Assembly: GCA_949293265.1 (NCBI GenBank)
Contig: CASFCK010000004.1
Span: 1-64,000 of the forward strand
Length of the DNA stretch: 64,000 nucleotides
Direction: 5' to 3'
DNA from: an uncultured bacterium
Lineage (GTDB): Bacteria; Bacillota_I; Bacilli_A; Acholeplasmatales; Anaeroplasmataceae
Shown here: positions 44,419 to 54,908 of the stretch, in pieces
Position numbering within the stretch: the first letter of the stretch is position 1
Layout of the letters: each line of letters starts with the position of its first letter
Program-made: the position numbers and the translations under genes
Notes under the pieces: model-generated
The model's database searches: none
Told to the model about the DNA's origin: nothing
What the model saw: only the letters and a program-made list of their open reading frames with translations

Positions 44419-44979
44419 TTGCATAAAATATTAGTATTGGTTAATAATAAAAGTGATTTCAAGTTTAAACAAGCATGTAATTTAAAAGATTATCAAGTTA
44501 CATTTTTAGATCTAGATAGTAATCTTTTAAAGAATAATTTAGCTAAAATTAGAACTGATATATTAATTTTAAATAAAGAGTATTTAGGTAATATGACTAA
44601 TTTATTAGCTTTACTTGTTGCTAATAAAAATATGCTGGTCGTTTATGTTTCTAAATCTTTAGAATACGGTCAATTATATAATATTATTAACGAGTCTAAT
44701 TTTATTTTATTAGAAGAAAAAAATATATCTGGATTAGACGATGTTTTACGTTATGCGATTAAAACATATAATTGTTTAATTAACTTAGAGAAAAAAGTAA
44801 TGCGATTAGAAGAAGAAATTAAAACAAATGATTTAGTAAGACAAGCTAAATTAAAACTAATGCATGAAAAAAAATTAACTGAAGATGAAGCTTATAAATA
44901 TATAATAAATTTAGCAATGCAAAAAAGAATGAAAAAAAGCGAATTAGCCAAGTTGATTATAGGAGGACTGATTTTATGA
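44419..44979 (+). CDS. ANTAR-domain antitermination-type regulator
   Basis: This 186-residue protein has a receiver-like N-terminal half (about 1-110) in which the usual phosphoacceptor Asp pattern is poor. A coiled-coil helix follows (about 118-140), then an ANTAR RNA-binding domain at 137-182 with A-K-L-K-L-M, E-D-E-A-Y and A-M-Q-K-R-M. ANTAR proteins bind paired hexaloop hairpins in leader RNAs and prevent termination. TTG 44419 follows AGAGGTG. The rnfC ATG overlaps its TGA stop, so it is part of the rnf operon. That is unusual: rnf operons seldom carry a dedicated RNA-binding regulator. Confidence 0.8.
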   Translation: MHKILVLVNNKSDFKFKQACNLKDYQVTFLDLDSNLLKNNLAKIRTDILILNKEYLGNMTNLLALLVANKNMLVVYVSKSLEYGQLYNIINESNFILLEEKNISGLDDVLRYAIKTYNCLINLEKKVMRLEEEIKTNDLVRQAKLKLMHEKKLTEDEAYKYIINLAMQKRMKKSELAKLIIGGLIL

Positions 44980-46274
44980 TTGCTAAAACAAGGGCAATAA
45001 ATGATGTATTAAATATGACTACATCTTTGCCAACAATTCATTTTACTAATCCAAAACGGGTTTATGTATCTATTACTAATGCGCGTTGTAAAACGGCAGA
45101 GGTTTATGTAAAACCGGGAGATAAGGTAAAGATTGGAACAATAATCGGTAAAAGAAATGGTGGATTTTTTGAACAAAATATGCACTCTACAGTTAGTGGT
45201 ACAGTTTTGGGGACTGTTAAAAAATGGCACCGTACCGGTAAAATGATTGATTTCATTGAAATCGAAAATGATTTTAAAGATGAATATGAAACAGGAGTTA
45301 ATGTTGAAAGAACTGATGAAGAGGTAAATTCTTTTACTAGAGAAGATATAATTGAATGTGTTAAACAAAATTCAGTTATTGGTTTAGGTGGTTCAACTTT
45401 CCCGAGTTATGTTAAATTAGAGTCATGTAAAGAAGTAGATACTCTAATTATTAATGGGGTAGAATGTGAGCCATATTTAACAACAGACCATAGAATATTA
45501 CTAGAATACCCTAATAAAGTAATGGAAGGAATTGGCTATTTACTTAAGGCAACAGGAGCTAAAAAAGCTTATTTATGTTTTAAGAAAAAATATGATGATT
45601 TATTCCAGGTTTTAACTGCAGTTAGAAAAAGACATATGGATTTACCTATTGAGATTAAAAAAGTTGAAAACTTTTACCCTCAAGGTTGGGAAGTGGCTTT
45701 AATTAAAACTGTTACTGGAAAAACTATTCCACATGGCGAGTTACCAAGTAATCATGGTGTTATAGTGTTTAATGCTTCAACTGCACTTGGTATTTATAGA
45801 GCAGTTAGACTTAATATGCCGGTTATAGAACGTAACTTTACGTTAACAGGGGATGGAATTAATTATCCTTCTAATATTAGAATGCGTATTGGTACTCCAC
45901 TTCAAGATCTATTAGAAATTTGTGGTGGTTATGTTGATGATAAAGATAAAGTTATCATTATGGGTGGACCAATGATGGGAGCATGTTTATTAAGAGATGA
46001 TGCAGTATGCAGTATGTCTTGTACATCAGCTATAGTTTTACAAGCCAAAGAATATAAAGAAGAGCCTTGTATACGTTGTGCATCTTGTGTATATTCATGT
46101 CCATGTGGTTTACAGCCGGTTTTAATTATGAAAGCTTATAAAACTAAAGATGTTGATGCATTAAAGAAATTAAATGTTAAAACTTGTATAGAATGTGGTA
46201 TGTGTGGTTATACATGTACTTCAAAAATTAATTTAACTGAATATATGCGTCAAGCAAAAAGACTTGTGAAGTAG
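44976..46274 (+). CDS. rnfC: Rnf complex subunit RnfC
   Basis: RnfC is the peripheral NADH/FMN-binding subunit of the Rnf ferredoxin:NAD oxidoreductase. It is 432 residues here. The N-terminal biotin-lipoyl-like region is followed by G-G-S-T-F-P-S-Y and N-G-V-E-C-E-P-Y, then two [4Fe-4S] motifs near the C-terminus (C-I-R-C-A-S-C-V-Y-S-C and C-I-E-C-G-M-C-G-Y-T-C). A G-G-P-M-M-G site is also typical. It is translationally coupled to the ANTAR gene and starts the C-D-G-E-A-B order. Confidence 0.95.
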   Translation: MIAKTRAINDVLNMTTSLPTIHFTNPKRVYVSITNARCKTAEVYVKPGDKVKIGTIIGKRNGGFFEQNMHSTVSGTVLGTVKKWHRTGKMIDFIEIENDFKDEYETGVNVERTDEEVNSFTREDIIECVKQNSVIGLGGSTFPSYVKLESCKEVDTLIINGVECEPYLTTDHRILLEYPNKVMEGIGYLLKATGAKKAYLCFKKKYDDLFQVLTAVRKRHMDLPIEIKKVENFYPQGWEVALIKTVTGKTIPHGELPSNHGVIVFNASTALGIYRAVRLNMPVIERNFTLTGDGINYPSNIRMRIGTPLQDLLEICGGYVDDKDKVIIMGGPMMGACLLRDDAVCSMSCTSAIVLQAKEYKEEPCIRCASCVYSCPCGLQPVLIMKAYKTKDVDALKKLNVKTCIECGMCGYTCTSKINLTEYMRQAKRLVK

Positions 46275-46285
46275 GGTGAATAAAA

Positions 46286-47464
46286 ATGATATTTAAAAGA
46301 GAAACTAGTCCTTTTATTAGAAAGCAAGTTTCTGTCAAAAGAATGATGTTAGATGTTATTATAGCTCTAATACCTATTACATTATTTGCGATGATTCAAA
46401 ACGGATGGAATGGTGTATATGTTATATTAACAGCTATTATCACAATGCTTTTAACAGAATTTGTAGGTGTAGCTTTAATTAAATGGCCTGATGGTATGCC
46501 AAGAAAAGAGCTATTTACAAAAGTTGGATTTAAGAAAATAGTAGAACAATTTAATATTAATAATATTTATTGTCCTTTAATTTCAGCTTTAATCTTTTCT
46601 TTATTATTACCTGCTGCTACACCAGTGTATGTAGTAATAGTAGGCGCAATAGTTGGTATTTTATTTGGTAAACTAGTATATGGACCTTATGGCAGTAATA
46701 TTTTTAATCCGGCTGCTTTAGGTTTTGTCTTTGTTTTACTATGTTTTAGTAATCAATTAGATGCAGCTAGAGATGTTGCTGCTAGTACAGTTAGACCAGA
46801 TGTAGTAGTTGATGGTGTTATTGCTGGTGGTACTCCGTTAACACAAATTAGTGGTAATTTGGCTAATTTTGGTAATGCATTACAAACATATAGTTTATTT
46901 GATCTTTTTGTTGGTAATGTTCCTGGTGCTATGGGTGAAGTTTGTTCAGTTTTATTAATTGTAGCATTTATCTATTTAACTATTAGAAGAGCTATTGATG
47001 TAAGAGCTACATTAGGTATGCTTTTAGGGTTTGGTTTAGTAGCTTTAAGTGTTGGTATTACGCTTTATTGTATAAATGGAACTAATGTAGGTGAGTTCTT
47101 ATTATATCAATTACTTGCTGGCGGATTATTATTTGGGGCAGTATTTATGATAACTGATCCTGTTACTAGTCCTGTTACAAAATTTGGTAGATTATTTTAT
47201 GGTGTATTTGCTGGTTTAATGGTAGCTTTAATTAGATATATTGGAGCTTATCCTGAAGGTACAGCTTTTGCTATATTATTAGCTAATATTATAGCTTCAG
47301 CTTTAGATTATTTTATGCAAGGCAAGAAAAACACTTATTCTTGGATTCAACTTACTGTTACTTTTTTAGTAATAGTTTGTGTATGTTTAATAATTTGTTT
47401 CACGGTAGCAGGTAGAACACCACTTCCTGAAACAAATATGATTTTAGGAGGTTTCCTAAAATGA
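46286..47464 (+). CDS. rnfD: Rnf complex subunit RnfD
   Basis: This 392-residue membrane subunit has about ten helices and carries a covalent FMN outside. The flavin attachment Thr is T183 in A-G-G-T-P-L, where most RnfD proteins have S-G-A-T-P-L. T-D-P-V-T-S-P-V-T-K and G-P-Y-G-S-N-I-F-N-P-A are family hallmarks. AGGGTG precedes ATG 46286. It overlaps rnfG by 4 bases. Confidence 0.95.
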   Translation: MIFKRETSPFIRKQVSVKRMMLDVIIALIPITLFAMIQNGWNGVYVILTAIITMLLTEFVGVALIKWPDGMPRKELFTKVGFKKIVEQFNINNIYCPLISALIFSLLLPAATPVYVVIVGAIVGILFGKLVYGPYGSNIFNPAALGFVFVLLCFSNQLDAARDVAASTVRPDVVVDGVIAGGTPLTQISGNLANFGNALQTYSLFDLFVGNVPGAMGEVCSVLLIVAFIYLTIRRAIDVRATLGMLLGFGLVALSVGITLYCINGTNVGEFLLYQLLAGGLLFGAVFMITDPVTSPVTKFGRLFYGVFAGLMVALIRYIGAYPEGTAFAILLANIIASALDYFMQGKKNTYSWIQLTVTFLVIVCVCLIICFTVAGRTPLPETNMILGGFLK

Positions 47465-50400
47465 AAAAATATTTAAAAATTACATTAGTCTTATTTTCAA
47501 TTTGTTTAGTCTGTGCCTTAGCTACAGCTGGAGTTAACTTATTTACAGCTCCTAAAATAGCTGAATATCAAGAAGAACAAAAGATGGCAGCCTATATGGA
47601 ATTATTTGAAGGTATGTCAGCTAGTAATTCAGAATTTATAAATGAAGGATTTACATCAAGTTATGTAAAAGAAAAAGTAATAGTAAAAGATGAAGCTGGT
47701 AATGACTTGGGTTATGGTATGCAAGTTTCAGGCAAAAATTCTTATGGCACTATTACTTTAGTAGTTGCCTTAGATAACGAAGGTAATTTAAAAAGTATTA
47801 AATGTACTGAAAATGGTCAAACTGGTGGCCGAAACACAATGATTAACGAGTATTTAACTCAATTTAGTTCAGGTATGACAGCAACGGATGTAGCAAACCA
47901 ACCAGTTTATTCAGGTGCTACATATGGTTCTAATTTAGTGAAAAGTTTACTTGCTGCAGCGTTTAGTGAAGCAGGTATTATGTCTCCAATCCAAGAAAAA
48001 TTAGTAGGTATCTTTGGTGATAGTGTAGATATGGGTAACACGATAGAAGACACATCATTCATTTATGCTCAACAAATCACACTTGGTTATGAAGTAAAAG
48101 ATGGTAATAATAATGTTTTAGGTTATTATTATGAAGTTAATGTTACTAATAGATTTGGTAATATAAATGTTGGGGTAGCTTTAAATAAAGATTATACATT
48201 AAAGCAAATTAATCAAATTGAAGTTGTTCAAAAGCCTTATGGTGAAAATGATACAACTACAATTGCTAAAGATTTCTTAAACGGTATGCAAGCTGGTTCT
48301 AATTATGATGCTATTAATGGTCTTGCTACAACTGCAGGTGCTACAATTTCTACAACTAGTGCTAAAGTTGCAGTACTTGTGGCTATGAAAGAAGCTCAAA
48401 ATCAATTTGATGAAGACTTAGCTTCAAGAATTATGTTCTATAATTACACTACAAAAGTAGATGCTGAAGGTAAACTTGATAATGTTGATAAATACCAAAC
48501 TGTTAAGAATGGTGAAAATAATCTTGGTAGTGTTGTATGTGTTAAAGATTCTAACAAATATGGTGAAATTGGTTTATATGTAGGTATTACAAGTAGTAAT
48601 ACATTAGCTGGCATATTTATTACATCTAATGGCCAAACTGCTGGTAGAGCTGATAGTTTATCTGATTATATGAATAATTTTACAAGCGGTATGACTGGTG
48701 AAGAAGTTATTAGTGAAGATAATTATACAGGCGCAACATTTGCTTCTAACACTGTTAAAGATTTATTAGCTACAGCCTTTGAACAAGTAACAGGTGAACG
48801 TCCTCAACTTGGTTATGATTCTTATTATGAAAAAGCATTTACTGGCGTTGATTTATCTAAGAGTCAAGCAATAGAAGAATTTAAATCAGAAAATATTTCT
48901 GAAGGTAAGATTTTATATGATGCTTCAGGTAATGTTCTTGGTAATGCCTATGTAATTAGTGGCACTAATGAATTAGATGGTACCTTAACATTGATGGTAG
49001 CTGTAAAAACTGATGGTAAATTACAAGGTGTTCAAGATATTTCTAATGTTCAAACTGGTACAGCTTCAGGTTTACTTGATGATTATCATAATAACTTTAC
49101 TGCAGGTATGTCACAAAGTGATGTTGAAGGTGTAGGCACAGTAAGTGGTGCTACAGTTGGTTCTATACATTATAAATCATTAGTAATTGAATGTATGGCT
49201 GAAGTTGAATCATATAATTCATATTATGAAACTTTATTTGGTGAAGTTACATTTGAAGTGATTAAAGACGTTAATAGAACAAATATAATTCAAGCAGTAA
49301 CTGCTAAAAATGGCGAAACAGTATTAGGTTATGCCTATATTATTAGATTAGAAAATGCATATGGCTATAATGTTATGTGTGTAGCATTAAATAGTGATGG
49401 TACTTATAAGAAGTTAATTGATGTTGAAAATAATCATGCTGATTTAACAGAAATTTCTACAGTCTTTGAAGATGGTAGTGACATGACAGAGATTATAGCT
49501 CAAGGAAATTCTGATCAAGCTATTGAAATTGGTGCTTCTTATACTTCAGAAATTGCTACTTTAGGTATTAAAATAGCTATGGATGCCTATAGTAATACTT
49601 TAACTGAAAGTATTTCTGATGAGCTTTATATTAAACAATTGTTCAATAATGCAGTTATGAGAAAAACAAATAAAATAACTATAACAAATACAGCTATATC
49701 TAAAGCTTATCAAGTAGTTGGTTCAGCTAATTTTTTAGATGATCAAGTTTTAGGTTATGTATATTTCTTAACTGTTGAAAATGAAGATGTATTAATGAGT
49801 TTAATTGTAGGTGTTAGTGCTGAAGGTAATTATATTGGTTCAATAATGACAAAATATGAAACAAAAGGTCAAACTAATATAAGTGGTTCATTTGCAGATA
49901 CACTACAAGGTAGAGTTGAAACTTATTTAAATGATTTAATAGGTTGCAATGATAGTGACATTAGAGTTGCTCCATATTTTGAAGCTGGTTCTTATGCATC
50001 ACAACTTGTAAAATATGCATTAAGATTATGTATAGCTGAAAGCAAAAACAAAGTATATGCTAAACCTGATTTATATAGCGACAATCAAATTTATATTGAT
50101 GCTTTAGGCGATGTAGATTTAACTAGTGCTACTAGACTTCCTGAAGGAGAAAATGAATTCTTATATCCTGAAACAATATCTGGTATTAAATTAGCAGATG
50201 AAAGTCATGCATACATTGTTAAAGGCATGGATGTATATTCACGTAATTATATTTTAGTTCATATAGCTAAGGATGGCTCATTAATCAGCATCTATGATGT
50301 TGAAAACAATCATGGTTCTATATCTGGTGTTTTAGATTTCTTTGATACGGGTATGACAGAAGAAGATGTTAATAAAATTGATTATAATCCTACAAATGAT

Positions 50401-51735
50401 GCAGAAGCTCACTCATCTTACACTGTAGAAATGACTAGACTTGCTATTTTAATAGCTATGCAAGAATTTAGAGCAATATCTTCTAATATAGTTGATTATG
50501 AATTAGCAGTTAAAGATTTATTCCCGTTTGCAATTTATACTAGAGGTGTAAATTTATTAGAAAAAGTAGAAGATAAAACAATAAGCTTTGCTATGGAAGT
50601 TAAAGGCGTTTCTAATTATGTAGCTGGTCAAACTTTAGGATATGCGTTTGCAAGAAATAATGTTATGATTGCTATGAGTACTTATGGTCTATATCAAGGA
50701 TATGTAGCTTTAGGTGAATTATCTAGTGAAGAAAAAGCATTCTATGATAGTATTAAAGCAAATATGACAAAACAAGAAATTTTACAATTAACTGGTTCTG
50801 AAGAAGCTAAAAATAATGTAGTTGCTATTATAAATGAAACATTTAATTTTGCTAAATTAACAGATTATGATGAATCTATTTCTAAGGCTTTCTCTAATTA
50901 TTCAAAAGCTGATTCAATAGTATTAGATATAATTAATTCTAATGATGTATTAGCTTCAGTACAAGTTAGAGATAACGCTAGTAAAGATTTAGGTTATGCA
51001 TATATAGTTTATTTAACAAATATTTATGGTCCTGGTGATGGTAGTTTTGGATACAATAGAATATTAGTTAGTCTTAATGCCGATGGCACATTTAATAAAG
51101 TATTTGATCTTGGTAACAATCATTCTAATGTTGATGAATGGACAAATACTAATCCAAATGTGTTTGTATCAGGCATGACAGCTGAACAAATTACAAATAT
51201 TAAATTTGATGCAGTATCTGGTGCATCATATACAATAGAAACTATTAAATTAGCAATAATGATTGCGATGAACGAACATGGCCAAACAAATAATAGCACA
51301 TATGAAGCTGCAGCAAGAAAAGTATTCCCTGGTATGGTTGCAGGTAGATCTGAAATATTAACAAATTTACCTGAAGGTATAGATTTTGGTTATCGTATTG
51401 TAGGTGCTACAGGTCCATTTGATAAAAATTCTACAAGTGAATTAGGTTATTTCTTCGTTGTAAGTGGAAAACACAAACGTGGGGATTTAACACTTGGTAT
51501 TGGTATTGATAATGAAGGTAAATTGGTAGGTATTGACATTATCAAGAATGGACAAACAGCAAGTTGGCCACAAAAAATTGCTGATTATGTGGCAAGTTTC
51601 ACTGCAGGCATGACGGCTGTTGAAGTGGCTGAAACTGCTACTGTATCTGGTGCTACTCTTGGCACACAACTTGTTAAAGATTTATTAGCAAAAGCATTTA
51701 ATGCTTATGAAACTCTAAAAGGAGGTAATAACTAA
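47461..51735 (+). CDS. rnfG: Giant RnfG with ten FMN-binding-type repeats (multiflavin Rnf subunit)
   Basis: Normal RnfG has about 200 residues, one membrane anchor and one covalently bound FMN. This one has 1424 residues. After an N-terminal membrane segment (about 5-28), ten FMN-binding-type repeats of about 130-150 residues follow outside the membrane. Flavinylation-type sites are S-G-A-T 151-154, A-G-A-T 292-295, T-G-A-T 423-426, S-G-A-T 562-565, I-G-A-S 690-693, E-A-G-S 841-844, A-H-S-S 983-986, T-G-S-E 1111-1114, S-G-A-S 1253-1256 and S-G-A-T 1396-1399. Five keep Thr, two more have a canonical G-A-S, two keep only Ser, and one is lost. ApbE, which attaches the FMN, is encoded nearby. 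The protein probably extends a chain of flavins away from the Rnf core for extracytoplasmic electron transfer. There is no LPXTG anchor. Confidence 0.93.
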   Translation: MKKYLKITLVLFSICLVCALATAGVNLFTAPKIAEYQEEQKMAAYMELFEGMSASNSEFINEGFTSSYVKEKVIVKDEAGNDLGYGMQVSGKNSYGTITLVVALDNEGNLKSIKCTENGQTGGRNTMINEYLTQFSSGMTATDVANQPVYSGATYGSNLVKSLLAAAFSEAGIMSPIQEKLVGIFGDSVDMGNTIEDTSFIYAQQITLGYEVKDGNNNVLGYYYEVNVTNRFGNINVGVALNKDYTLKQINQIEVVQKPYGENDTTTIAKDFLNGMQAGSNYDAINGLATTAGATISTTSAKVAVLVAMKEAQNQFDEDLASRIMFYNYTTKVDAEGKLDNVDKYQTVKNGENNLGSVVCVKDSNKYGEIGLYVGITSSNTLAGIFITSNGQTAGRADSLSDYMNNFTSGMTGEEVISEDNYTGATFASNTVKDLLATAFEQVTGERPQLGYDSYYEKAFTGVDLSKSQAIEEFKSENISEGKILYDASGNVLGNAYVISGTNELDGTLTLMVAVKTDGKLQGVQDISNVQTGTASGLLDDYHNNFTAGMSQSDVEGVGTVSGATVGSIHYKSLVIECMAEVESYNSYYETLFGEVTFEVIKDVNRTNIIQAVTAKNGETVLGYAYIIRLENAYGYNVMCVALNSDGTYKKLIDVENNHADLTEISTVFEDGSDMTEIIAQGNSDQAIEIGASYTSEIATLGIKIAMDAYSNTLTESISDELYIKQLFNNAVMRKTNKITITNTAISKAYQVVGSANFLDDQVLGYVYFLTVENEDVLMSLIVGVSAEGNYIGSIMTKYETKGQTNISGSFADTLQGRVETYLNDLIGCNDSDIRVAPYFEAGSYASQLVKYALRLCIAESKNKVYAKPDLYSDNQIYIDALGDVDLTSATRLPEGENEFLYPETISGIKLADESHAYIVKGMDVYSRNYILVHIAKDGSLISIYDVENNHGSISGVLDFFDTGMTEEDVNKIDYNPTNDAEAHSSYTVEMTRLAILIAMQEFRAISSNIVDYELAVKDLFPFAIYTRGVNLLEKVEDKTISFAMEVKGVSNYVAGQTLGYAFARNNVMIAMSTYGLYQGYVALGELSSEEKAFYDSIKANMTKQEILQLTGSEEAKNNVVAIINETFNFAKLTDYDESISKAFSNYSKADSIVLDIINSNDVLASVQVRDNASKDLGYAYIVYLTNIYGPGDGSFGYNRILVSLNADGTFNKVFDLGNNHSNVDEWTNTNPNVFVSGMTAEQITNIKFDAVSGASYTIETIKLAIMIAMNEHGQTNNSTYEAAARKVFPGMVAGRSEILTNLPEGIDFGYRIVGATGPFDKNSTSELGYFFVVSGKHKRGDLTLGIGIDNEGKLVGIDIIKNGQTASWPQKIADYVASFTAGMTAVEVAETATVSGATLGTQLVKDLLAKAFNAYETLKGGNN

Positions 51736-52475
51736 TGGAAAAAGTTAATCAAAAGAAGAACTTTTTAAAAGGCATAATAGTTGAAAACCCAGTCCTTGTT
51801 GGTTTACTTGGTTGTTGTCCTACACTTGCTACTACAACATCAATTGAATCAGCAATAGGTATGGCAATATTATTCCTATTTGTTTTAATTGGTTCTAACG
51901 TATTAATTTCTTTACTTAGAAAAGTAATTCCTGCAGAAGTTAAAATACCTGCTTATATAGTTATTATTGCTACATTTGTTACAATAGTTAAAATGCTTTG
52001 CGAAGCATTCTTACCAGAATTATATTCAACACTTGGAGTATTTATCTCTTTAATCGTTGTTAACTGTATTATTCTTGGTCGTGCAGAAGCATATGCAAGC
52101 AAAAACGGTCCGTTATCTAGTTTAGTAGATGCACTTGGAATGTCTGTTGGTTTTGCTTTAGCATTATTAATTATGGCATTTATTAGAGAATTCTTAGGAA
52201 CAGGTGGATTTACTTTTGGTAAAATATTTACATTTATACCACTAGTAGAATGGACTCCACTTAAAACTTATGCTATTCCAATGCTTATTCAATCTCCAGG
52301 TGGTTTCTTAACCTTAGCTTGTATTTTAGCAGTTATTCAATATCATAAAAATCATAAAACGGAAAAAGAAATTAGAGCTGAAAAGGCTAGAATCGAAGAA
52401 TTAAAAAAAGCTAAATTAGCAAAAATGGCTGAAGCAGCTAAAACAGAAACAAAAACTGTAAAGGAGGCGGCATAA
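51735..52475 (+). CDS. rnfE: Rnf complex subunit RnfE
   Basis: This 246-residue integral membrane subunit of the RnfA/RnfE pair has six helices and conserved Cys-bearing segments (G-C-C-P-T-L and V-N-C-I-I-L-G-R-A-E-A-Y). In the complex these ligate a membrane-embedded [2Fe-2S] cluster. The C-terminal 45 residues are a charged Ala/Lys/Glu helix not needed in other RnfE proteins. Its ATG overlaps the rnfG stop by one base. Confidence 0.93.
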   Translation: MEKVNQKKNFLKGIIVENPVLVGLLGCCPTLATTTSIESAIGMAILFLFVLIGSNVLISLLRKVIPAEVKIPAYIVIIATFVTIVKMLCEAFLPELYSTLGVFISLIVVNCIILGRAEAYASKNGPLSSLVDALGMSVGFALALLIMAFIREFLGTGGFTFGKIFTFIPLVEWTPLKTYAIPMLIQSPGGFLTLACILAVIQYHKNHKTEKEIRAEKARIEELKKAKLAKMAEAAKTETKTVKEAA

Positions 52476-52476
52476 T

Positions 52477-53058
52477 ATGTTTTTAGCATTTATCTTAGGT
52501 ATTGTTAATGCAATGCTAATTAACAATGTTACCTTATCACGTTTCTATGGTATTTGCCCATTCCTTGGTGTTTCTAAAAAACCTTCATCTGCAATAGGTA
52601 TGGGTGCTGCAGTAGTATTCGTTATAGTTATAGCAGCGGCAGTATGTTGGCCTATTTATAACTTTATATTAGTTCCTGCTAATATTGCCTTTATGGATAC
52701 TTTAGTTTATATTTTAGTAATCGCTTCATTAGTACAACTTGTTGAAATGATTATTAAAAAATATAGTCCTGGTTTATATAGTGCCCTTGGTGTTTATTTA
52801 CCATTAATTACTACAAACTGTGCTGTACTTGGTGTAGCTACAGAAAATAGTAGTATGGGTTATAATTTCCTTGATTCAATGGGTAATGCTCTTGGTACAT
52901 CTATTGGTTTTGCTTTAGTAATATTCTTATTCTCTACAATTAGAATAAGAATGGAATCTTCAAATATTCCTAAAGCATTTAAAGGAATCCCAATTGCTTT
53001 AATTACAGCTTTCATAATGGCCCTTGCATTTATGGGCATTAGTGGAATGATTCAATAA
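52477..53058 (+). CDS. rnfA: Rnf complex subunit RnfA
   Basis: This 193-residue membrane subunit has six helices. It is homologous to RnfE in inverted topology, with G-I-C-P-F-L-G-V and T-N-C-A-V-L-G-V as cluster-binding Cys motifs. GGAGG lies in the end of rnfE, one base separates the genes, and the stop overlaps the next ATG. Confidence 0.95.
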   Translation: MFLAFILGIVNAMLINNVTLSRFYGICPFLGVSKKPSSAIGMGAAVVFVIVIAAAVCWPIYNFILVPANIAFMDTLVYILVIASLVQLVEMIIKKYSPGLYSALGVYLPLITTNCAVLGVATENSSMGYNFLDSMGNALGTSIGFALVIFLFSTIRIRMESSNIPKAFKGIPIALITAFIMALAFMGISGMIQ

Positions 53059-53255
53059 TGTGGCCTTTAATATTAGGTATAGGAGTTATAGTTTTATTAA
53101 TAGCAATTTTCTTTATTAGTTATGTTATTAATAAAAAAACTCCCGTACCACCCGAATGTAAGGATATATCTGATAGTTTAAAATGTGAATCATGTACAGA
53201 AATAACATGTGCTTTAAATAAAATACATGATGAAGTAAAAAAGGAAGGTAAATAA
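53058..53255 (+). CDS. Small Cys-rich membrane protein within the rnf operon
   Basis: This 65-residue protein has one membrane helix (about 3-25) and a short tail with four cysteines in the pattern P-P-E-C-x9-C-x2-C-x4-C. It sits between rnfA and rnfB, overlapping the rnfA stop by one base and ending one base before the rnfB start. The size and anchor-plus-Cys tail recall NqrM, a maturation factor for the related Na+-NQR, and FeoB-associated Cys-rich proteins. The Cys spacing does not clearly match either. It may assist iron-sulfur insertion into RnfA/RnfE or supplement the shortened RnfB. That role is inference from position. Confidence 0.55.
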   Translation: MWPLILGIGVIVLLIAIFFISYVINKKTPVPPECKDISDSLKCESCTEITCALNKIHDEVKKEGK

Positions 53256-53256
53256 T

Positions 53257-53571
53257 ATGGATGCATTAACAATATTATGGGCTGTTCTAATATTAGCTGG
53301 CCTTGGAGCTTTATTCGGCTTTGGCTTAGCTGTAGCTGCTAAAATATTCTATGTTAAAGAAGATACAAGAGTAACCGATATCACAGCCATTTTACCTAAC
53401 GCAAACTGTGGTGCTTGTGGTTATCCTGGTTGTAATGGTTATGCAACTGCTATAGTTAAGGGTGAAGCATCTAGTATAGAATTATGTAAACCAGGTGCTA
53501 AAGCCGGAGTGGCAGCTAAAATTAAAGCTTATTTAGCTGAACACCCTGCAGATAATGATAAAAAATATTAA
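53257..53571 (+). CDS. rnfB: Short RnfB lacking ferredoxin domains
   Basis: RnfB normally (about 260-330 residues) takes electrons from ferredoxin through two or more ferredoxin-like clusters after a first Fe-S domain. This version is 104 residues. It has a membrane anchor (about 5-28) and the first [4Fe-4S] domain with Cys51, 54, 59 and 77 (N-C-G-A-C-G-Y-P-G-C, then E-L-C-K-P-G), then a short tail and a stop. A terminator follows at once, and no ferredoxin-domain sequence continues in any frame. The shortening therefore looks genuine, and electron entry must use another protein. Confidence 0.85.
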   Translation: MDALTILWAVLILAGLGALFGFGLAVAAKIFYVKEDTRVTDITAILPNANCGACGYPGCNGYATAIVKGEASSIELCKPGAKAGVAAKIKAYLAEHPADNDKKY

Positions 53572-53666: not shown

Positions 53667-54908
53667 TTGAAAAAAATATATTCATTTATATTAATGTTAT
53701 TTATAACACTCTTTTTAGCTGGTTGTATGTATGATTTTAATAATAACAACAATATAAATAATGATGAATATAAACTTTATAGTGGTTATTTTGCTAGTAT
53801 GGGTACGGCGATCAATTTACAAGTATATGAAAAATCACAAGCTAAGGCTAATGAAATATATGAAAATGTAAAAGCTATTTATGAAAAATATGATAATATT
53901 TCAGATGATGGTTATGATTCAATTTATGGTCAAAATAATGAAAGTGAATTGGCTATTTTAAATCAAAATAGATCAATGCAAGTCTCTAAAGAGTTATATG
54001 ACCTACTTAAGTTTGCTCAAGAAATGCAAGAAGAAACAAATGGATACTTTAATCCATTTATGGGTGAATTAAATCATTTATGGAAAGATTATATTAATTA
54101 TGTTGGCAGTATGCCAAGTTTAGGTGAAAAAACATTTTATACTAGTGTGGCTAGAAATACATATTTAGAATTTGGTGAAAATAATCTAGTTACTATTTGT
54201 AATGACGTGACTGAAAACAGTGCTTTAATAGATTTAGGTGGAATAGCTAAAGGTTATGCAACTAACGAAGCATACAAATATTTAAAAAATAACTGTAAAT
54301 ATTATTTATTAAATGCAGGGTCTTCTAATTTACTTATGAGTGAACAACCAACGCAAAATTATTATAATGTAATATTATCATATGTTTTTGGTTATCCTAA
54401 CTCAAACCCTAAGATTGAAATTATTGATGGTTATTGGCATATAGATGGTAGAAACATTGAACTAAAAGCTAAGGCTGGAGCAAAAGCATATTATGGTTCT
54501 GAATCAGCAGACAAGGTAAAAGATGCTAAAGATGGAGATCTTTATTTTTTAATTAATAGTCAAAATACAATTGTTTATATTAGGGAAAATGGTAATTGGC
54601 GTAATAAATTAAATTTAGGAATAACAAACATCAAAGGCTCAAATGAAGCTATAGTTACCTCAAGTCCATCTCAACAAAACAGAGATAAAATATACCATCA
54701 TTTAATTTCACCACTTACAGGAGAACCAGTTAACTATATTGATAGTGTAACTGTAATAGGTGAAGATTCAGGCTATTTAGATGCAATGTCAACAGCGCTA
54801 TATGTAATGCCAGATGAAGAAAGAAATGAATTTATATTAGAAAAAGACTTGCAGGTTATAATTACTAAAAACGGTGAAATATATTATGCGTCAGAAGGTG
54901 TATTATGA
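53667..54908 (+). CDS. apbE: ApbE, FAD:protein FMN transferase lipoprotein
   Basis: ApbE cuts FAD and attaches FMN to Thr/Ser of RnfD and RnfG outside the membrane. This 413-residue form has a lipoprotein signal with lipobox L-A-G-C (about 19-22), S-M-G-T-A-I-N-L at the fold start, D-L-G-G-I-A-K-G-Y-A in the nucleotide site and H-H-L-I-S-P-L-T-G-E-P near the end. It is 60-80 residues longer than usual. The extra part lies at about 250-315 and looks like a surface-protein module (D-G-Y-W-H-I-D-G and G-D-L-Y-F-L-I-N). TTG 53667 follows AAGGAG. It overlaps the NusG-II gene by 4 bases. Its substrate load is unusual, because RnfG alone offers up to nine possible sites. Confidence 0.92.
   Translation: MKKIYSFILMLFITLFLAGCMYDFNNNNNINNDEYKLYSGYFASMGTAINLQVYEKSQAKANEIYENVKAIYEKYDNISDDGYDSIYGQNNESELAILNQNRSMQVSKELYDLLKFAQEMQEETNGYFNPFMGELNHLWKDYINYVGSMPSLGEKTFYTSVARNTYLEFGENNLVTICNDVTENSALIDLGGIAKGYATNEAYKYLKNNCKYYLLNAGSSNLLMSEQPTQNYYNVILSYVFGYPNSNPKIEIIDGYWHIDGRNIELKAKAGAKAYYGSESADKVKDAKDGDLYFLINSQNTIVYIRENGNWRNKLNLGITNIKGSNEAIVTSSPSQQNRDKIYHHLISPLTGEPVNYIDSVTVIGEDSGYLDAMSTALYVMPDEERNEFILEKDLQVIITKNGEIYYASEGVL

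Follow-up and report, generated by a model that had tools for sequence, protein, structure and literature searches.

A ten-domain RnfG fixed in an apparently wall-less genus of the Anaeroplasmataceae

Introduction

In the Rnf complex, the flavin of the RnfG subunit accepts electrons at the RnfA/E cluster and then swings across to RnfD (PMC12174285), and an ordinary RnfG, such as that of C. tetanomorphum (7zc6_G) or A. woodii (9eri_G), holds one FMN-bind (flavin mononucleotide-binding) domain in about 190-207 amino acids. Proteins with more flavin domains have also been described. Meheust et al. (2021, eLife, PMC8238504) reported RNF clusters with a multi-flavinylated RnfG, proposing that it gives electrons a second route to other extracytosolic acceptors, and also multi-flavin proteins with as many as 13 predicted sites. 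SaFMN3 and CbFMN4 carry FMN-bind domains in tandem after a single N-terminal membrane segment and are flavinylated by ApbE (PMC10339131), the FMN-bind2 paired-domain proteins form even-numbered arrays of two-domain units (PMC10979944; Huang et al., 2024), and a multi-haem, multi-flavin RnfG with CxxCH motifs occurs in Christensenellales. Here we describe an RnfG of 1424 amino acids with ten FMN-bind domains (R1 to R10), encoded by an uncultured bacterium of the Anaeroplasmataceae (order Acholeplasmatales) in the first 64,000 nucleotides of contig CASFCK010000004.1 (assembly GCA_949293265.1), a stretch referred to below as the window.

The closest precedent is the RnfG of the 2021 survey (PMC8238504), which resembles the window protein in its multiple FMN-bind domains, in its place in an RNF cluster and in the outward electron path proposed for it. 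Multi-FMN-bind proteins were therefore already known, as a preliminary description of this locus had stated, and the lineage itself may already be listed in the supplement of that survey. The present case differs in its 10-11 domains fixed in one apparently wall-less genus, its two pocket classes, a dead domain (R8) and the lack of a haem motif; what is added is the size of the array, its fixation in such a genus, the pocket classes together with the dead domain, growth by a two-domain A-B unit, the exchange of modules, and the comparison of domains added in cis and in trans. The 3-4 domains of SaFMN3 and CbFMN4 are more than 80% identical, are joined by flexible linkers and do not belong to an RnfG, whereas the ten domains of the window protein are only 11-39% identical to one another and are joined by short turns modelled with high local confidence. 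FMN-bind2 domains are about 160 residues long, contain insertions and pair through beta-sheets; those of the window measure about 115-140 residues, nearer to FMN-bind1 (about 120), and thus fall outside FMN-bind2, even though the domain tree resolves R5-R10 into three A-B units. A haem fusion like that of the Christensenellales RnfG is ruled out, as no CxxCH motif occurs in the 1424 residues.

One reading frame with ten FMN-bind domains

Both the long frame and the single membrane anchor of the preliminary description are borne out: the frame is one open reading frame without internal stop, and its sole hydrophobic stretch is N-terminal. The curated PF04205 model recognizes six stretches of the protein (83 bits, E 1.8e-23), and a repeat profile derived from the ten repeats and refined by iteration over 27 proteins returns exactly the ten domains that had been counted, each with E <= 2.1e-14, values flattered for this query by a partly circular training on the query itself. 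Six orthologues likewise give ten domains with this profile (in genome G002 two are partial), that of G004 (1555 amino acids) gives 11, and the RnfG of the sister genera g5 and g6 gives one. The rnfG model TIGR01947 matches residues 9-145 only (E 6e-11; 42.7 bits against a cut-off of 102 bits, a shortfall typical of nearly all relatives in the class among the matches listed), and from this confinement it follows that RnfG proper is the first domain, the remainder being an addition. The N-terminal helix and the FMN-bind domain behind it fit the RnfG models; ordinary RnfG chains, which share both elements, are the top matches in the PDB in both sequence and fold searches. With more than one FMN-bind domain behind a single N-terminal helix, as found with PF04205 and the repeat profile, the protein also belongs among the multi-flavin-domain proteins. 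Its parts are the following.

47461-51735, forward strand: rnfG, 1424 amino acids, a membrane helix at about residues 2-31 and then ten tandem FMN-bind domains (open reading frame, PF04205, TIGR01947, single hydrophobic stretch)
47587-47970, forward strand: R1, the RnfG domain proper, T154 in SGAT, pocket ENGQT
47998-48393, forward strand: R2, T295 in AGAT
48427-48786, forward strand: R3, T426 in the full ApbE motif DNYTGAT
48817-49203, forward strand: R4, T565 in SGAT, a site altered in G005 and G006
49219-49584, forward strand: R5, A-type (His...Ser), S693 in IGAS
49624-50040, forward strand: R6, B-type, S844 in EAGS, pocket Gln lost, doubtful
50086-50466, forward strand: R7, A-type, S986 in AHSS, pocket ENNH
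50503-50847, forward strand: R8, B-type, E1114, pocket loop deleted, covalent flavin not expected
50872-51276, forward strand: R9, A-type, S1256 in the full motif DAVSGAS
51307-51702, forward strand: R10, B-type, T1399 in SGAT, pocket KNGQT

Structures were predicted with AlphaFold2 from non-overlapping four-domain segments of seven genomes. For R1-R4 and R7-R10 the mean pLDDT (predicted local distance difference test) is 87-88 and the pTM (predicted template modelling score) 0.71-0.74, and the models of both segments have a common pattern of four successive strand-plus-helix domains with short joints. In a fold search RnfG chains rank best, and NqrC and domain 2 of SaFMN3 also match; the E-values are modest (0.006-0.3) because single-domain targets were compared with a four-domain query.

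The same fusion is carried by all seven other sampled genomes of the genus, giving an RnfG of 1353-1555 amino acids in 8/8. Tandem repeats are prone to misassembly, and their arrangement differs in G002 and G004, which would suit the view that the long frame is an assembly artefact or a gene fusion; an artefact had also been named beforehand as an outcome that would speak against the protein. This is contradicted by the agreement on length among the eight independent genomes, which rules an assembly artefact out, and by the position of the frame on a 92-kb contig. Moreover, repeats of 11-39% identity are too diverged to collapse, and most of them group by position across genomes, so we attach next to no probability to this explanation.

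Attachment residues and two pocket classes

The ten residues proposed for flavin attachment (T154, T295, T426, T565, S693, S844, S986, E1114, S1256 and T1399), their spacing of 128-151 residues and the tally of five G-A-T, two G-A-S, two altered motifs (E-A-G-S and A-H-S-S) and one Glu were all given correctly in the preliminary description. Its statement that the first and last repeats look most canonical holds only in part: the complete ApbE motif, D-x-x-[ST]-G-A-[ST], occurs at two of the ten sites, in R3 and R9, while G-A-[ST] is present at seven and Thr or Ser at nine. In a survey of 81 domains from the eight genomes, 79 of which have a residue in the attachment column, Thr or Ser stands there in 71/79, and in 71/72 when R8 is left aside; the eight exceptions are seven copies of R8 (Glu or Lys) and the R6 of G001 (Tyr). 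T154 of R1, in SGAT, is kept in every genome of the eight.

A second position, 86 alignment columns upstream of the attachment column, would, from its place in the FMN-bind domain, belong to the flavin pocket. It holds Gln in combination with Thr (36 domains), His in combination with Ser (25) and, in R6, Thr in combination with Ser (6). Two pocket classes thus recur, Gln...Thr in R1-R4 and R10 and His...Ser in R5, R7 and R9, and since the pairing follows two repeat clades, it represents two conserved classes and not repeated independent covariation. R8 keeps neither the pocket nor the attachment residue, and in 4/7 of its copies the loop is deleted. With Glu or Lys in R8 wherever it aligns by position, and its pocket loop mostly gone, flavin at all ten sites is ruled out; for the window RnfG we estimate from these residues a load of eight flavins (R1-R5, R7, R9 and R10), with R6 doubtful and R8 empty.

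The load would be far smaller, two to four flavins among spacer domains, if ApbE required the Asp at -6 and only R3, R9 and perhaps R1 and R10 were flavinylated. That the strict motif is confined to R3 and R9 fits this reading, and the Asp of the motif has been called essential (PMC10722498); however, in one test elsewhere its replacement by Ala had only a minor effect (PMC12052999). R1 is without this Asp in 7/8 genomes, yet it should be flavinylated for Rnf to work, and Thr/Ser is conserved regardless of Asp. Such a sparsely loaded RnfG appears decidedly improbable to us.

Growth and divergence of the array

In a rough tree of 116 domains, based on few alignment columns, the copies of each of R2, R3, R4, R6, R7 and R8 from different genomes fall together. 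One clade (100/99) unites R5, R7 and R9, and another (87/98) unites R6, R8 and R10, within which R6 stands with R8 (99/89), and R5-R10 are thus most simply read as three copies of a two-domain A-B unit. A and B units have been lost or added in G002 and G004. Between G000 and G006 (the window rnfG against L057), the synonymous divergence (dS) is 0.90 in R3 and 0.78 in R4, against 0.16-0.57 in the other repeats and 0.09-0.20 in the other rnf genes; between G003 and G007 (L056 against L060), it is 0.35 in R1 against 0-0.18 in the other repeats. In the domain tree, R4 of G006 groups with G005 and G001, and repeat modules seem to have been exchanged between species. For the pair G000 and G006, the ratio of nonsynonymous to synonymous divergence (dN/dS) is 0.28 over the whole RnfG and 0.00-0.07 in the other Rnf subunits, by which measure the RnfG modules evolve faster than the rest of the operon. 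Repeat by repeat the ratio is mostly 0.04-0.6, which indicates purifying selection on nearly every repeat.

A ratio so much higher than in the other subunits, the replacement of whole modules between species (seen in the dS of 0.78-0.90 in R3-R4) and the death of R8 would all be expected if R1 alone transferred electrons and the rest of the protein were a fast-changing surface tail, made of retained FMN-bind modules and serving adhesion, shielding against phages or predators, or antigenic variation. A purely structural tail would not need attachment and pocket residues, yet these are kept in nearly all domains except R6 and R8, and we regard a surface role of this kind as unlikely.

Distribution among relatives

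The array is the largest of any RnfG in the genomes sampled here. The sister genera have an ordinary one-domain RnfG, and when the first domain was searched against 160 genomes of the order, every RnfG that it found outside the genus had at most 611 amino acids. A further RnfG-like frame of 856 amino acids was seen with TIGR01947, among the matches listed, in the genome G069 of the order. In G069 a protein of 847 amino acids occupies the G position of an Rnf-like D-G-E-A cluster (L078, 2312-6991) with no rnfC or rnfB adjoining, and this cluster may be an Rnf-like system that runs one way.

Extra flavin domains at RnfG are found in two other forms. Six of the seven sampled relatives in families f3 and f5 have, next to RnfG, a second membrane-anchored protein that carries 2-3 FMN-bind domains; this is the same domain addition as in the genus, made as a protein of its own. 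It is encoded between rnfG and rnfE (L050-L055), and most of its domains have good ApbE motifs. Family f11 of the class has an independent RnfG of about 1000 amino acids with 6-7 weaker FMN-bind domains (L076, 3156-6170; L077, 3614-6661), located in a full rnf operon that also includes the small Cys gene, a gene for a short RnfB and apbE. The separate subunit and the f11 array together make the addition of flavin domains at RnfG a recurrent theme, and further giant RnfG proteins elsewhere in the class are possible. The genus, with its fixed array, thus comes with built-in comparisons: one-domain RnfG in the sister genera, extra domains on a distinct subunit in other families and, in f11, an independent long array.

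Cell wall and proposed function

The Acholeplasmatales are known as wall-less bacteria. The penicillin-binding transpeptidase family PF00905, which matches 10/14 control genomes, is absent from 8/8 genomes of the genus, and the sole Mur_ligase_M match is a 406-amino-acid frame directly after the valyl-tRNA synthetase gene that reads as a folylpolyglutamate synthase (FolC). The genus is, on this gene content, probably wall-less. A conduit across the cell wall is ruled out, as wall genes were not found in the genus genomes; with no markers of wall synthesis, wall-spanning cannot explain the length of RnfG, and the usual suggestion for multi-flavin proteins does not apply to cells that appear to have no wall. 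An outward tether stays plausible without a wall, and the lineage can therefore separate wall bridging from electron storage or export.

We tentatively favour, at somewhat under an even chance, the reading in which the extracytoplasmic flavin subunit of Rnf has become a tethered array that unloads reducing power on an acceptor outside the cell. R1 would do the normal job of RnfG, by homology the transfer of electrons from the [2Fe-2S] cluster of RnfA/RnfE to RnfD. R2-R10 would stand outside the membrane as nine further domains, about seven of which, to judge from their attachment and pocket residues and the position of the gene in the operon, would carry FMN attached by the neighbouring ApbE. 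The array would draw electrons from R1 and pass them outward through contact between moving domains, the tail acting as a side exit by which Rnf could unload reducing power onto an acceptor outside the wall-less cell. Flavin loading, electron flow along the array and the external acceptor are all inferred. The direction of flow would be favourable: the one multi-flavin protein measured has a potential of -184 mV (PMC10339131), above both Rnf couples (ferredoxin -420 mV, NAD (nicotinamide adenine dinucleotide) -320 mV; PMC12174285), and flow into the tail would be downhill if the tail is similar. This reading is supported by the fixation of the array in eight genomes, the conservation of Thr/Ser and of the pocket, the adjacency of apbE, the status of RnfG as the sole FMN-bind protein, the recurrence of the theme in relatives, purifying selection and the precedent of PMC8238504. 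If the array is indeed a relay, it would be a model of how an ion pump can export electrons without haem. The stronger proposal, that a wall-less bacterium has given its Rnf pump an outward outlet of about seven extra flavin domains with two pocket types, by which electrons destined for NAD+ reach outside acceptors with neither haem nor a wall to cross, we consider rather unlikely as a whole.

Several observations weigh against export along the array. The Asp at -6 is absent at 7/10 sites (R1, R2, R4, R5, R6, R8 and R10), the attachment motif of R4 is broken in two genomes (G005 and G006), and R8 has no attachment residue in all seven genomes that align there by position. No gene for the acceptor was identified. 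In addition, the dead R8 and the weak R6 interrupt a continuous chain and leave the live sites of R5-R9 about two domains apart. One FMN-bind domain on its own is 26 x 26 x 44 A in size (PMC10339131), and with flavins on separate domains of this size, electron hops need domain movement and contact or a favourable packing. The outward flavin wire of the preliminary description thus stands as a real, genus-conserved, RnfG-anchored multi-FMN-bind array with most attachment residues kept, while its character as a wire is conjectural: the dead R8 and the weak R6 make a static wire improbable and better suit a relay or antenna on a tether.

Alternatively, the array could be a store, its roughly eight FMN forming an electron buffer beside Rnf that smooths the redox swings of fermentation and returns its electrons to RnfD rather than to the outside. 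With many flavins on a shared tether, such a store needs no strict order of domains, in keeping with the dead R8 and the swapped modules, and the failure to find an acceptor gene agrees with it; about 16 electrons per complex are, however, few compared with the fermentation flux, and storage does not need a position facing outside. The present results do not separate this store from a relay, though we think the store unlikely to be the main role.

Operon and genomic context

The gene order around rnfG is ANTAR protein, rnfC, rnfD, rnfG, rnfE, rnfA, 65-amino-acid Cys protein, rnfB, apbE, NusG_II protein and Hpre_diP_synt_I protein.

44419-44979, forward strand: ANTAR-domain protein (PF03861), of the RNA-binding antiterminator type
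44976-46274, forward strand: rnfC (TIGR01945, 366.8 bits)
46286-47464, forward strand: rnfD (TIGR01946, PF03116)
51735-52475, forward strand: rnfE (TIGR01948, over the cut-off)
52477-53058, forward strand: rnfA (TIGR01943, over the cut-off)
53058-53255, forward strand: 65-amino-acid single-pass membrane protein with four cysteines, between rnfA and rnfB
53257-53571, forward strand: rnfB, 104 amino acids, a membrane helix and one Fe-S (iron-sulfur) domain (TIGR01944, PF04060)
53667-54908, forward strand: apbE, FMN transferase (PF02424, 140 bits), with a lipoprotein-like N-terminus

The order of rnfC, D, E, A and B around rnfG is constant in all loci of the genus, and apbE follows rnfB in most of them. 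The complete rnfCDGEAB operon with apbE that had been described is there by gene names, with the qualifications that RnfB has just 104 amino acids and no ferredoxin domains and that the 65-amino-acid gene lies between rnfA and rnfB. The missing C-terminal ferredoxin domain of RnfB is the electron acceptor in characterised Rnf. RnfB is short (98-127 amino acids) in every relative of the order that was examined, and no longer RnfB was found in the eight genus genomes. The ANTAR-domain gene, directly upstream of rnfC, is conserved in the genus and in sister genus g5, and its product is a possible regulator of the rnf operon.

The 65-amino-acid protein consists of one membrane helix, NKKTPVP and then, in the window, C-x8-C-x2-C-x4-C (alignment A6; L068-L075). 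Its gene is present in 147/296 genomes of the class and lies, by hand count, 1.3-2.2 kb downstream of rnfG on the same strand in at least 34. Pfam gave the protein no good match (PF12669 weakly) and thus no support for its being NqrM itself. In build it is similar to NqrM, a small Fe-S maturation protein of NQR (PMC12174285), and by this analogy it may be an Rnf counterpart of NqrM or an extra cluster carrier.

Scans of the window against Rfam and for tRNA genes gave no hits. The genome (1.59 Mb in 55 contigs) encodes two [FeFe]-hydrogenase-type proteins, as would suit a fermenter that uses ferredoxin. RnfG was the only FMN-bind protein found in this genome, and the neighbouring ApbE is the likely loader of the flavin array. 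This ApbE matches its family in two stretches separated by an insert-like gap of about 100 residues after residue 234, and its orthologue in G001 is, at 807 amino acids, about twice as long (L036, 1591-4014).

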